Assembly (NCBI RefSeq): GCF_039851975.1
Contig: NZ_CP156660.1
Span: 3,415,035-3,479,034, forward strand
Direction of reading: 5' to 3'
Source: Desulfoscipio sp. XC116
GTDB taxonomy: Bacteria > Bacillota > Desulfotomaculia > Desulfotomaculales > Desulfallaceae
DNA: 64,000 bases
Shown: piece by piece, positions 23,510 to 29,107 of the stretch
How the letters are laid out: every line of letters starts with the position of its first letter
Numbering within the stretch: position 1 is the stretch's first letter
Program-made: the position numbers and the translations under genes
The notes under the pieces: generated by a model
Database searches by the model: none
Told to the model about the DNA's origin: nothing
Seen by the model: the letters and a program-made list of their open reading frames with translations, nothing else

Positions 23510-24409
23510 TTATTGATTAATGCTGTGAATTGACTCGTTTATTAAAGATGTTAAATCAGCCGGCAAGGGGGCCACCAATTGCATGTTCTCTCTTGTAACA
23601 GGATGGCTAAACTCCAAACGCCAACTATGTAAAGCCTGACGCCGGATCATATTTAAACTGCCCCCGTATAAGTCATCTCCCATTAAGGGATGGCCTAGAT
23701 GGCTCATATGTACTCTGATCTGGTGGGTACGACCTGTTTCTAACCGCAATCTTATCAAACTGCCGCCGGCGAAACGCTGCAATACGGTAAAATGAGTAAT
23801 CGCTTCTTTGCCCCGAGGTGTTATACCAAAGATAAGAGAGTCCTCATAGGGCCGGCCGATAGGCAAATCAATTATTCCCGAATCCATTACTATCTGGTTA
23901 TGCACCACTGCTAAGTATTCCTTTCGGCATCTGCCGTTTTGCATTTGTTGGGAAAGTTGATGGCAGATGTAACTGCTTTTGGCAATTAAGATAACGCCGG
24001 AAGTGTCTTTATCCAACCGGCTGACCGCTCTGAATTTACTATTATGCCCTTGCAGCTGCCAATGGTGAATAACACCGTTAGCCAAGGTATTCAGGGTATG
24101 ATAGGAAAGCGGATGCACCAGCATGTTGAATGGCTTGTTCACTGCCAGGATATGCTCATCCTCAAAGAGAATATCTAATGGTATGTCCTGGGGTATTACC
24201 GGTTGTTCAAAATCATCCTGAAAGTGCACCCGAATTAAATCGCCTTCTTTTGCCAGCGTATTTAGACGAACCGTTTGACCGTTCACCGTAAGTCCGGCAC
24301 AGCGTTTAACCCTTCGTATTTCACCACGGGAAAATTTCAGATGGTTCTTTAGTATTTGTGAAACTTTTTGGTTATTGTTATCTTTTGTAACCCTATATTC
24401 GATGTGCAT
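23510..24409 (-). CDS. RluA-family pseudouridine synthase
   Basis: The 299-aa enzyme has an N-terminal S4-like RNA-binding region (VSQILKNHLKFSRGEIRRVK) and the pseudouridine synthase core with catalytic Asp in AVSRLDKDTSGVILIAKS. Further motifs are VNKPFNMLVHP and LRLETGRTHQIRVHMSHLGHPLMGDDLYGG. It converts uridine to pseudouridine in rRNA or tRNA; within the family it is nearer RluD/YtzG-like enzymes, and the exact target site cannot be read. The ATG at 24407-24409 is used because GAAGGGTGA lies upstream. It lies 91 bp downstream of the CNB/polyferredoxin gene on the same strand. Confidence 0.93.
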   Translation of the reverse strand: MHIEYRVTKDNNNQKVSQILKNHLKFSRGEIRRVKRCAGLTVNGQTVRLNTLAKEGDLIRVHFQDDFEQPVIPQDIPLDILFEDEHILAVNKPFNMLVHPLSYHTLNTLANGVIHHWQLQGHNSKFRAVSRLDKDTSGVILIAKSSYICHQLSQQMQNGRCRKEYLAVVHNQIVMDSGIIDLPIGRPYEDSLIFGITPRGKEAITHFTVLQRFAGGSLIRLRLETGRTHQIRVHMSHLGHPLMGDDLYGGSLNMIRRQALHSWRLEFSHPVTRENMQLVAPLPADLTSLINESIHSINQ

Positions 24410-24500
24410 GATTGTTTCACCCTTCACATTAACGCAACAGAATGAATTGGAGCACAATCTTTGATATCTCCTATGTTACGAAAGGGTTGCAATTCTGCTC

Positions 24501-26993
24501 CTAATTCTCCTTCAATATTAAGATATCCCAGATAAAGCCTTTTAATTTATGTAGGAATTCCCCAATATTAGCTCCAAAACCATGTTTAACAGTATTTGAT
24601 TTTTCAGGCAATTTTCCTTCTGCATGCAGAATTACCATTACAAATGTAATAATTGTCATTAGCAAGCCGATCGAGAACATGACGGCTGCTCCTATTTCAA
24701 AAGCAGAAACATAAAACGCTTGATCAATCCCCGCGGGAGTATTAAAACCTAGCCCTATAAAAATTGAATTCACACCGGGTATAAAATGAAGATGATAAAT
24801 TATATGCCCGGCTGTAACTAAAGGAATAAAAGCAAAAACCAGCTTAATCCGTGTAGATGTCGCTTTAGTTTTAAAAGGCTTGGCAATAAGCCACGTTATC
24901 AAACCGGCACCAACTGCAATTCCCCAGTAAGCAATACTAAACCATAAGCGCCACACGGAATCCGGCCATGTCGATTGTAGCGGCCCCAAATAATTCAGCG
25001 GGACTAAAATTGCTAAAATTACCCCGATAAAAAGAGCAAAACCTTGGTTAACCCTAACCAGGTGCCATACTTCCCGGCCCGGAATCCGAAGATTTAATTG
25101 CACCGAGCCATTGGGACAATTGCGCACGCAATTGAAACAAAACTTACAAGCAAGATTATTATCGAGGTACGGTAAATGTTGAAACATTGGGCACCCGGGA
25201 ACGCTTCCATTACCGACATAGCACTCATTAGTCGTACATTTATTAAGACAAATCGTGGGGTCCGCTCTTATTTCAAGTATGGAACCGATAGAAGCTATAC
25301 CCACAAATCCCCCCAGGGGGCAAAGGTAGCGACACCATGTATGACGGGTAAAAATAATACCTACAATTATTGCGGCCAGCTGGAAAGCCGATAAAAGCAT
25401 TACAGTATTTTTAGGACTGGTACGCAATCCAAAAATAACTTCTATCCAGAAGATAAATAGAAATAAAAAAGTAATAAACAAATAATCGTACTTTTGCAGC
25501 CAATCCGGAACAGGTTTATTCAGGTGCAGTTTTTTTTGAACTAACTCCATGATAAACGCAAAGGGACAGATAGTACACCATAGCCTTCCAAAAGAAATTG
25601 AGATTATTGCCAGAACAGGCCACCATAAACCCCAAACTAAAATAAAAATAGAGTTAGTCATAGCTATTTGGGGAGCCAATATTAACAATAGAATTATAGA
25701 TAAAAATACAGCTGCAGAAAAACGCCTGATCCAGGAGATAAATAATCCTCTTTTAAATATATTTTCTATTTTAGGCCACAGAAGAAGATTAACCGTTCTT
25801 CCGATTCTCTCCGCAGTCGGACCAAAAAAGATGTGTTCCACCCCGATTAAATTATTTTCGGCCAGGAAAAACGCCCTTTTCATAACTCGAATTAGCTCGG
25901 TTACATTTCCCAGTCGATAATGATGGGAAAGAAGCAGTTTACTTGCTTCTTTAGTGAGAACAGGGCTTGTTTTATGATGGTTACGGGCCAATTTATCTAA
26001 AATACCCTGAGCTATAATTGGAATATCTTTTTTTCGTTCACGTAAAGGTTTAATTGTATAAGTTTGGTTAAAACGCTCCCTTAGCTCCGGTATAATTCCG
26101 GGGGACAATTGCTCCGGGTTCCCTTGTAGACTGGCTATCACAAGACAGTTAAACTTCTTTAGACACTCAGCCAATTTAAACTGGACTCTGGGGGAAATTC
26201 TATTAATTTCCTTGAACAATAATGTTCCATTTTCAACCATTCCAAAAAGATTAAAGAGCGCAGCCAGATCATCTTCACCAGCTTCATACATCATATCGCT
26301 CCACTGCTGATCAAAATAACGCCCGTCAATAACTAAAAAGGCTGCCGATTCCCCGAACCGACGCTTATGTAAATACCAGGCCAGCACTTGCCGGCCTGTA
26401 CCTCGTTCGCCGATTAAAAATAAGTTTTCCTTCGTATTGGCCAACTCAGCAATTTTACCTTCAACTTCCCTGGTCGTTCGGGCACTTCCCCAAACCCCGT
26501 AAAATTTATCCTTATAATGAGTTAGCTGAAAGGTCGAACGTACGGAATCTTTATATTTGGCATCCCATATTTCACTATTGGCGTTATGTAAATTATGGTA
26601 TAGATGTTCAAGATATTTTTGATAAAGCTTAGGCCACCTTACGAGCATTCTCGTAAAATTCTGATGATTTAACACCAAAACACGGCAGTTTTCCAAACAC
26701 CGCACCGTCGTCGGCGCAGGTTTTCCGGTAAAGAGCGAGATTTCACCAAAAGCATCACCGGGGCCAAAAAAACTAACCTTCCAAGAATTAATCCCCTGCT
26801 TTGAAACCAACGCTTCAGCCTTACCTGCAATTAAAACATAATAATTGTGTTCCGTTTGGCCTTGCTTTATGATCACAGTATCTTTTTGATACTCTCGCCA
26901 CTTAAAATCATCCGCCAGTTGACTTAATTCCTGGTTGTTAAGATCGGCAAAGAATCGGACTTTCGATAAGCAATGCACTTTTTCAGTAATCAT
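24501..26993 (-). CDS. Cyclic-nucleotide-binding / degenerate AAA+ / membrane polyferredoxin fusion
   Basis: The 830-aa protein joins three parts. Residues 8-125 are a CRP-type cyclic-nucleotide-binding fold (VIIKQGQTEHNYYVLIAGKA, FGPGDAFGEISLFTG). Residues 165-395 resemble the AAA+ core of sigma-54 activators, but Walker A is GERGTGRQ (Arg for Lys), Walker B is TLLFKEI (Lys for Asp) and the GAFTGA loop is absent, so ATP hydrolysis and sigma-54 contact are unlikely. From 415 on come about eight helices of the NosR/NapH/YccM type, with WCTICP (C473, C476), WCRYLCP (C554, C558) and ferredoxin cysteines C582, C586, C591, C601 and C616, C619, C622, C626. No DNA-binding domain is present. The ATG follows TGGAGGTTCT. 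It is probably a regulated membrane electron-transfer protein; this is inferred. Confidence 0.85.
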   Translation of the reverse strand: MITEKVHCLSKVRFFADLNNQELSQLADDFKWREYQKDTVIIKQGQTEHNYYVLIAGKAEALVSKQGINSWKVSFFGPGDAFGEISLFTGKPAPTTVRCLENCRVLVLNHQNFTRMLVRWPKLYQKYLEHLYHNLHNANSEIWDAKYKDSVRSTFQLTHYKDKFYGVWGSARTTREVEGKIAELANTKENLFLIGERGTGRQVLAWYLHKRRFGESAAFLVIDGRYFDQQWSDMMYEAGEDDLAALFNLFGMVENGTLLFKEINRISPRVQFKLAECLKKFNCLVIASLQGNPEQLSPGIIPELRERFNQTYTIKPLRERKKDIPIIAQGILDKLARNHHKTSPVLTKEASKLLLSHHYRLGNVTELIRVMKRAFFLAENNLIGVEHIFFGPTAERIGRTVNLLLWPKIENIFKRGLFISWIRRFSAAVFLSIILLLILAPQIAMTNSIFILVWGLWWPVLAIISISFGRLWCTICPFAFIMELVQKKLHLNKPVPDWLQKYDYLFITFLFLFIFWIEVIFGLRTSPKNTVMLLSAFQLAAIIVGIIFTRHTWCRYLCPLGGFVGIASIGSILEIRADPTICLNKCTTNECYVGNGSVPGCPMFQHLPYLDNNLACKFCFNCVRNCPNGSVQLNLRIPGREVWHLVRVNQGFALFIGVILAILVPLNYLGPLQSTWPDSVWRLWFSIAYWGIAVGAGLITWLIAKPFKTKATSTRIKLVFAFIPLVTAGHIIYHLHFIPGVNSIFIGLGFNTPAGIDQAFYVSAFEIGAAVMFSIGLLMTIITFVMVILHAEGKLPEKSNTVKHGFGANIGEFLHKLKGFIWDILILKEN

Positions 26994-27291: not shown

Positions 27292-27491
27292 GACTTCTCA
27301 GGCGCGGGAGTATTAGATGAATTGGAACATCTGGATGGAGACCTACTGGATACTCTATCGCAGTATTATATAGAATCAAGGTATACAGAAGATAGAGACG
27401 CTCTATTCGAAAATGCACTAAGGCTTTCACTGAAAATATATTGAAAAAGACGGGGGATGTTTTTGAATGGCTAAAAGACCAATTGAGATAA
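27292..27491 (+). pseudogene. Decayed HEPN-domain gene, C-terminal remnant with frameshift
   Basis: One frame reads GVLDELEHLDGDLLD then LSQYYIESRYTEDRDALFEN, the C-terminal half of a HEPN domain. At about 27415 the reading must move to another frame to continue TKAFTENILKKTGDVFEWL and end KDQLR at 27491. Upstream of 27292 an in-frame TGA and loss of recognisable sequence indicate further damage. The end overlaps the start of the MNT gene by 25 bases, as in working HEPN/MNT pairs. HEPN partners are usually RNase toxins; this copy should be inactive. Confidence 0.65.
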
Positions 27492-27796
27492 GTATAAAGA
27501 AATACCTGGAAAAACTTAGTGCAAATAATATCCGCGTTAAAAAAGCTATTCTTTATGGCTCGTATGCCAACGGAAAGGCTGATAAAGATAGCGATATCGA
27601 CCTAGCCGTCATATCTCCGGATTTCGGGGTTGACAGCTTTAACGAAGCAATACTTCTAAGAAGGTTTAACCGGGGTATTGATCTGGATATTTCACCGCGA
27701 CCATATTCAGAAAATCAGTATAATGCAGCCAAAAAAGGTGATTTTCTATATGATGAAATAATTCAGAAGGGTAAAGTAGTGTACGAAAAGAATTGA
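27467..27796 (+). CDS. MNT-type minimal nucleotidyltransferase (antitoxin-like)
   Basis: The 109-aa protein has the polymerase-beta active site AILYGSYANGKADKDSDIDL, with both metal-binding Asp residues, and a third acidic strand in RGIDLDISPRPYS. Minimal nucleotidyltransferases of this kind (MntA) neutralise a neighbouring HEPN toxin by adding AMP to it. Here the HEPN gene upstream is broken, so the protein is an orphan or acts on another HEPN protein. GGGGGATG 12-20 bases before the ATG is the likely ribosome site. Confidence 0.85.
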   Translation: MAKRPIEISIKKYLEKLSANNIRVKKAILYGSYANGKADKDSDIDLAVISPDFGVDSFNEAILLRRFNRGIDLDISPRPYSENQYNAAKKGDFLYDEIIQKGKVVYEKN

Positions 27797-28654: not shown

Positions 28655-28786
28655 TTTTTAAACCTCCCTTAATTAAATTTATCAAACTAAATGGGCATGC
28701 GTAAATATCATTCCTCCCTTAATAAACTTTGCTCCTTTTAACTAATCTGCTCAATAATCTGACGTTTTTAACCTATATATTGTTCC

Positions 28787-28900
28787 AGTGAACTCGTTCA
28801 GCTAAAGCTAGACATCGGAGCTTCAGATGGAGATTCCATCCCACCAAAAGTAAGAATAGAAACCCCCGCTTATAGAAGCGGCAGTCTTGAAATTTGATAA
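28787..28900 (+). repeat. Hairpin repeat, copy A (about 114 bp)
   Basis: It starts AGTGAACTCGTTCAGCTAAA and ends GCAGTCTTGAAATTTGATAA. It contains the stem GATGG...CCATC and the stronger stem CCGCTT-ATAG-AAGCGG. It is about 85% identical by eye to copy B 80 bp downstream, and its first half recurs at 3850-3917. Terminal hairpins of this kind resemble ends of IS200/IS605-group elements. The 450-bp gap 28655-29107 holds the two copies, and between them is another stem-loop, AGCCG-GAA-CGGCT. Confidence 0.65.
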
Positions 28901-28979
28901 ACAGCAGCCGGAACGGCTTGTTATCGAACCGCTATTATGAATTGGCAAATACGGACAATGTTACGTGGTATAATTAGTC

Positions 28980-29092
28980 AGTAAACTCGTTCAGATAAAG
29001 CCGAACATCGGAACTTCAGATGGGGATTCCACCTACCGAAAGTAAAGATAGAAACTCCCGCTTATAGAAGCGGCAGTCCTGGAATTCGATAA
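28980..29092 (+). repeat. Hairpin repeat, copy B (about 113 bp)
   Basis: It starts AGTAAACTCGTTCAGATAAA and ends GCAGTCCTGGAATTCGATAA, with the same CCGCTT-ATAG-AAGCGG stem as copy A. It ends 15 bp before the ATG of the poly-gamma-glutamate hydrolase-like gene, so it forms most of that gene's 5' leader. Confidence 0.65.
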
Positions 29093-29107
29093 AAAATAGG
29101 TGATACT

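Follow-up and report, generated by a model that had tools for sequence, protein, structure and literature searches.

In a 64,000-nucleotide window of the Desulfoscipio sp. XC116 genome (NZ_CP156660.1, positions 3,415,035 to 3,479,034; coordinates below count from the first letter of this window), we characterized a gene on the minus strand (24501..26993) whose 830-amino-acid product joins three parts. From N to C terminus these are a cyclic-nucleotide-monophosphate (cNMP)-binding fold, a sigma-54-activator-type AAA+ domain and a NapH/NosR-like membrane module. Alignments and structural models indicate that the residues for ATP hydrolysis and sigma-54 contact are lost throughout the family to which this protein belongs while the AAA+ fold is retained. 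We propose that it is a signal-gated membrane electron-transfer protein, a reading to which we give even weight for and against; gating and electron transfer are both inferred from the sequence.

The gene starts with an ATG at 26993 and is a single open frame, its 830 codons lying within a stop-free stretch of 861. Pfam places cNMP_binding (PF00027) at residues 33-117 (6e-18), Sigma54_activ_2 at 169-286 (5e-10), AAA_lid_14 at 318-388 (1e-12) and two stretches of Fer4_5, the better of which covers residues 452-493 (7e-9) and scores 36 bits, above the curated cut-off of 22. The five Pfam families listed for the protein at E<=1 include no helix-turn-helix (HTH) family, and no FMN-binding family, the extracytoplasmic domain of NosR and RdhC, appears among matches at that threshold. 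Structure prediction for the whole protein gave a mean predicted local distance difference test score (pLDDT) of 86.0 and a predicted template modelling score (pTM) of 0.68. Annotation pipelines may mislabel three-part members of the family as transcription regulators, since the best-scoring NCBIfam models for this protein are activators, all below cut-off. The original prediction for this DNA had described an 830-residue protein of three parts with no DNA-binding domain; the single frame, the Pfam domains, the same order in relatives and the lack of an HTH match uphold it. That the layout arose from an assembly join or a frameshift between two or three genes has a negligible chance of being right, because relatives from two further genomes (L008, L009; 78% identical) read straight through the whole of it; no point in favour of such a join was found.

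The AAA+ domain, membrane module and cNMP domain

The degenerate AAA+ domain and its lid occupy residues 158-390 (25824..26522, minus strand; PF14532, PF00158 and PF25601). In a fold search, the model of this segment matched NtrC1 (1ny5_A) with Z 23.0 and a root-mean-square deviation (rmsd) of 3.4 over 228 aligned residues, so structure prediction finds the fold of the domain retained. Walker A reads GERGTGRQ, with Arg in place of Lys (residues 195-202; 26388..26411, minus strand), and Walker B reads GTLLFKEI, with Lys in place of Asp (residues 256-263; 26205..26228, minus strand). The protein has no GAFTGA. Loss of the Walker A Lys, the Walker B Asp and GAFTGA had all been predicted and all three are indeed gone, with the refinement that the Walker B Glu is still present.

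We then read these positions across 62 aligned family members. The Walker A Lys is present in 42 and replaced by Arg in 16, the Walker B Asp is present in 2 and the Walker B Glu in 9, the window protein included; no member of the 62 combines all three residues, and none has GAFTGA. For comparison, we used 19 proteins from the same searches, of which 17-18 keep each of the residues compared; these are not each proven activators, and the patatin-type protein L025 is counted among them. Using the names that such motifs carry in activators, the switch Asn occurs in 17/19 comparison proteins versus 0/62 family members, the two arginine fingers in 17/19 versus 0/62 and 5/62, and the sensor-II Arg in 17/19 versus 6/62. 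Other AAA+ residues are still kept in the family, namely Gly256 (62/62), Asn363 (62/62) and Glu366 (61/62). Re-reading 34 loci gave a matching division: 31 have the cysteine pattern described below and neither GAFTGA nor a Walker B DE box, and the remaining three show the reverse, with both motifs present and the cysteine pattern missing. These 31 loci overlap the 62 aligned members, as they include the window gene and several seen before.

The members come from a genome scan in which we took the best 80 of at least 430 confirmed stretches among at least 591 matches. At twelve of the 80 loci, no family frame reached 590 aa: seven are of a stand-alone type (L109-L115), three were read in the wrong frame (L057, L076, L105) and two were lost to an antisense open reading frame (ORF; L079, L087). 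The 62-row alignment omits these 12, members outside 780-950 aa (L050, L060, L063, L096, L107, L108, L116) and five manually removed near-copies (L040, L042, L051, L069, L072); the earlier set of 80 rows retained the three wrong frames.

The C-terminal part is a predicted membrane polyferredoxin module of about eight helices (residues 417-793; 24615..25745, minus strand), identified from Fer4_5, the model and hydropathy, with helix number and placement set by hand from the latter two. Of the protein's 17 cysteines, 12 (473, 476, 554, 558, 582, 586, 591, 601, 616, 619, 622 and 626) are invariant in 62/62 members, matching the prediction of at least 12 conserved-looking cysteines, and the same 12 are invariant in a 29-row alignment that takes in six stand-alone membrane halves. 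They form a CX2CP motif in a putatively cytoplasmic-side loop (C473/C476; 25566..25577), a CX3CP motif (C554/C558; 25320..25334) and a ferredoxin-like segment (C582, C586, C591, C601, C616, C619, C622, C626; 25116..25250), all on the minus strand. The first four ferredoxin cysteines are unusually spaced (CX3CX4CX9C), and the eight together would suffice as ligands for two [4Fe-4S] clusters. Modelled alone, residues 401-830 reached pLDDT 88.5 and pTM 0.85. Lys and Arg are concentrated in the loops on the side of the N terminus and the cysteines (26 in 199 residues versus 1 in 42 in the other loops), and the parts whose fold or motif is known therefore probably all face the cytoplasm. NapH was not among the best 25 of 32 NCBIfam models for the window protein, and six stand-alone halves match NapH models only far below cut-off.

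The N-terminal part is a CRP-like cNMP-binding domain followed by a long helix (residues 1-148; 26550..26993, minus strand; PF00027). Its model matches the CRP of Mycobacterium tuberculosis (4a2u) with Z 20.1 and rmsd 2.3 over 146 aligned residues. Domains of this kind bear an Arg motif in the phosphate-binding cassette. The window protein has the pocket Glu (Glu84) and no phosphate-binding Arg (KPAPTTV); among the 62 aligned members, 59 have the Glu and 21 the Arg. We found no class III cyclase (PF00211) in the window genome, compared with 9 of 13 carriers searched that have one and three others that are also without, and no CYTH protein (PF01928); the search covered these two cyclase classes and no others. 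Because the phosphate Arg is missing and neither cyclase class was found, classical cAMP or cGMP is an improbable ligand in the window species. At 4 of 68 loci, all anammox-labelled (L061, L068, L086, L101; Pfam for each), a CHASE2-cyclase gene lies directly upstream, which suggests a cyclic-nucleotide link there; at a fifth anammox-labelled locus (L083) the upstream DNA is too short to tell.

Distribution and modularity of the family

Searching for the three-part order across genomes showed that it recurs, at 21-78% identity, in records labelled as several phyla. The 60 relatives examined include three-part proteins with 78% identity (two genomes) or 28-33% identity (five more genomes), one partial match with 40% (L016), and a truncated copy with 73% (L010, in G011:C17) whose match stops at residue 462 and is followed in another frame by a C-terminal scrap (745-795). 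Scanning contigs with a single protein sequence gave no relative; an alignment query did. Labels include Desulfosporosinus, Thermincola, Desulfotruncus, Desulforamulus, Desulfomonile and Desulfobulbaceae, as well as Scalindua, Brocadiaceae, Nitrospirae, Geobacter, Armatimonadota, Elusimicrobia and Acidobacteria, many of them attached to metagenome-assembled genomes (MAGs). Among 299 genomes of the window's phylum, at least 10, the window genome included, hold full-span matches to the cNMP+AAA+ module. There are at least 14 such matches, all listed ones in frames of 799-861 aa, and the next matches listed begin at module position 111 or later (not each inspected). In 345 genomes of the G402 phylum, 16 had matches at E<=1e-84; of the 20 matches, 17 (13 genomes) have the cysteine pattern and three are intact activators. 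Six of 201 genomes of the G409 phylum had matches at E<=1e-80, with the membrane module inspected in only some of the six. The family gene is patchy and accessory.

Inputs and outputs vary around the pseudo-AAA+ domain. Two members place an FHA domain ahead of cNMP, pseudo-AAA+ and polyferredoxin (L174:958-4185, L175:1-3174; Pfam), and in a Chloroflexi-labelled MAG (L096:6038-9151) HisKA and receiver domains replace the cNMP domain. The N-terminus of L167 had a GspE_N-like look, which Pfam did not confirm. In L025:1432-3279, and also in L147-L150, cNMP and degenerate AAA+ domains precede a patatin-like phospholipase with no membrane module. Querying 113 genomes of the order with L025 returned 12 matches: three at full length in three genomes and one from residue 141 in a fourth genome, all four in family f3, and eight to the patatin part only. 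Stand-alone membrane halves of ~440-485 aa also occur (L017, L018, L020-L022, L109, L115) and fall at two places among the fused ones in a tree of that half.

The AAA+ tree gathers ordinary activators, the cNMP-HTH type included, into a single group (100/99); the pseudo-AAA+ and patatin rows lie outside, and the patatin rows may sit either beside or within the family. The AAA+ and membrane parts appear to have largely stayed together, because both half-trees recover, by eye, the same small clades (the window protein with L008, L037, L043 and L046; L174 with L175). Three of the 345 genomes searched in one phylum encode cNMP proteins with an intact sigma-54 AAA+ domain. Two of these proteins (L173, L176) carry a Fis HTH by Pfam and end after it, and the third gene (L177) is cut by a contig end. 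Homologues with intact AAA+ motifs and an HTH therefore exist, and since L173 and L176 have no membrane module, the three-part reading is left standing. Their place among ordinary activators in the AAA+ tree does not support them as direct ancestors.

Neighbouring genes and competing readings

Neighbouring genes, called by a crude longest-ORF method, were counted at 68 of the 80 loci. We rejected conserved operon partners: neighbours are lineage-specific, and none is common to the family. Its downstream neighbour, an RNA pseudouridylate synthase gene 43 bp away (23510..24457, minus strand), is probably not a partner, because it was not seen in the short flanks of L008 and L009. Desulfobulbaceae-type loci have hisD-, rsmG-, leuB/icd- and prs-like neighbours (Pfam for L073, clustering for the others), and Desulfomonile- or delta-labelled loci have a histidine kinase and an NtrC-type regulator, again lineage-specific. 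A SLAC1-like gene lies one or two genes downstream in three of the four loci with a CHASE2-cyclase. P-type ATPase genes lie near the stand-alone halves L109 and L115, the latter also near DUF305, and, divergently, near one fused member (L047), so a metal-handling role is also possible. For copper reduction of the CcoG kind, the one pointer is the P-type ATPase gene close to L109 and L115. Small His/Met-rich ORFs adjoin L017, L018 and L020-L022 by eye.

Other features of the window lie upstream of the gene. A 109-aa nucleotidyltransferase (NTP_transf_2/Polbeta; 27467-27796, plus strand) is of a size that we take to be typical of MNT-type antitoxins. Further on, an imperfect direct repeat of ~115 bp (28786-28901 and 28979-29093), with no gene called within it, has copies 79-87% alike over parts and 192-193 bp apart.

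In the reading that we favour, a sigma-54-activator chassis gained a NapH/NosR-like membrane module by fusion and its motor was lost afterwards; the sensor-AAA+ layout would be kept, with a polyferredoxin in place of the DNA-binding output. The cNMP domain and long helix would bring subunits together and detect a small ligand, which in the window species is probably something other than classical cAMP. As a non-hydrolysing scaffold or relay, the pseudo-AAA+ domain would pass ligand state to the membrane module, which may use two [4Fe-4S] clusters and two CXnCP motifs to transfer electrons between a partner and a carrier in the membrane, for example quinol. The protein apparently works either by itself or with partners whose genes lie elsewhere. 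This fits the part of the original prediction that saw a membrane redox protein with AAA+ as a scaffold (hydrolysis residues lost, fold kept, 12 cysteines, no HTH and swappable inputs); its proposal of gating by a nucleotide is weakened for the window protein by the missing Arg and by the lack of a class III or CYTH cyclase in the genome. Tentatively, and with somewhat less confidence than we place in the window protein's own role, we extend the proposal to a multi-phylum group of one-component regulators whose sensor-AAA+ chassis, acting as a pseudo-ATPase relay, would directly control an enzyme and not a promoter: membrane electron transfer here, a patatin-type lipase in the related group.

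Several observations count against the favoured reading. The crude gene calls at 68 loci revealed no redox partner gene common to the whole family. The phosphate Arg is absent from the window protein and also from the four members adjoining CHASE2-cyclases, and the window genome yielded neither a class III nor a CYTH cyclase. The membrane half (residues 401-830) has no PDB fold match at E<=0.001, so its cofactor assignment rests on motifs. Each functional step of the reading is a prediction: control of the C-terminal half by the N-terminal one, cluster assembly and electron movement.

The main rival reverses the flow of information: the membrane Fe-S module would sense the quinone pool or redox state, and the pseudo-AAA+ domain would co-assemble with or sequester true sigma-54 activators as a membrane-bound dominant-negative. 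A kept fold stripped of hydrolysis residues and GAFTGA is what such a poison subunit would need. Activator-like genes occur within two genes at 7/68 loci (L070 and L096 on weak matches), including a histidine kinase and NtrC-type pair directly upstream in L054, L058 and L059 (Pfam-checked in L058 only) and, on the other strand, NtrC-type genes near L089 and L103. Sigma-54 itself turned up in 29 of 30 carrier entries, two of which (G070, G753) seem to represent a single genome. We do not count this co-occurrence in favour of a sigma-54 role: it is weak in the window's phylum (10/10 carriers versus 201/299 genomes, p ~0.02, kinship not corrected) and absent in the G409 phylum (4/6 versus 141/201). 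Sigma-54 was not detected in three carriers (G754, G790, G842), whose assemblies may be incomplete, and the patatin version has an enzyme output and no evident sigma-54 tie. Overall, we consider the reversed flow unlikely.

It is likewise doubtful, though worth keeping in view, that the protein is a constitutive membrane oxidoreductase subunit, such as a quinol dehydrogenase or metal reductase, whose N-terminal half only aids assembly or oligomerisation and senses nothing. The window protein has lost its ATPase residues along with the cNMP Arg, which would suit that role, as would the existence of stand-alone membrane halves, two with a P-type ATPase gene nearby and five beside His/Met-rich ORFs. 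Retention of the pocket Glu in 59/62 members and the Arg in 21/62 argues against it, and the FHA and HisKA/receiver domains, as added or alternative inputs, suggest control. An ordinary sigma-54 activator seated on the membrane is very improbable. It would share the sensor-AAA+ order, and genuine cNMP+AAA+HTH activators exist (L173, L176), but without GAFTGA, Walker B Asp, arginine fingers or a detected HTH, such a role is contradicted by the sequence unless the protein acts through an intact partner.

Comparison with known systems

In the open-access literature, with most subscription papers outside the search, we recognised no description of a cNMP, pseudo-AAA+ and polyferredoxin combination. 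The legend to the activator-domain figure in a survey of Clostridiales sigma-54 activators (PMC6615313) mentions Fer4, which, as far as that passage shows, is a soluble-ferredoxin arrangement. If our proposal is true, the family would switch membrane electron flow post-translationally in bacteria labelled as sulfate reducers, metal reducers, anammox bacteria and others. It would also illustrate clearly how a sigma-54-activator AAA+ domain can be retained for its shape once ATP hydrolysis and DNA binding are both gone.

Each part of the protein has well-known counterparts. CXnCP motifs and C-terminal ferredoxin cysteines are reported features of the NapH/NosR/RdhC family (PMC5928378, PMC8238504). 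The window protein shares these and Fer4_5, and differs in the added cNMP and pseudo-AAA+ domains and in that no FMN-binding domain was found. With CRP- and PKA-type cNMP domains it shares the fold and Glu84; it differs in the absent phosphate Arg, and no CRP HTH was found. The cNMP proteins with intact AAA+ domains (L173, L176, L177) start with the same pair of domains, likewise cNMP before AAA+; unlike the window protein, they have intact AAA+ motifs, a Fis HTH (L173, L176) and a place among ordinary activators. Bacterial enhancer-binding proteins (NtrC1, PspF, FleQ, NtrX) resemble the family in the AAA+ fold and lid (Z ~21-23) and in placing the sensor before AAA+, whereas the family has lost GAFTGA, the Walker B Asp, the arginine fingers and the sensor-II Arg, and an HTH was not found. 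VpsR and FleQ are DNA-binding regulators, VpsR with altered motifs. Both have the same AAA+ fold (7v2b, Z 21.9; 5exx, Z 21.3) and, according to their PDB titles, bind c-di-GMP, which by analogy offers a precedent for a second-messenger role in this family.

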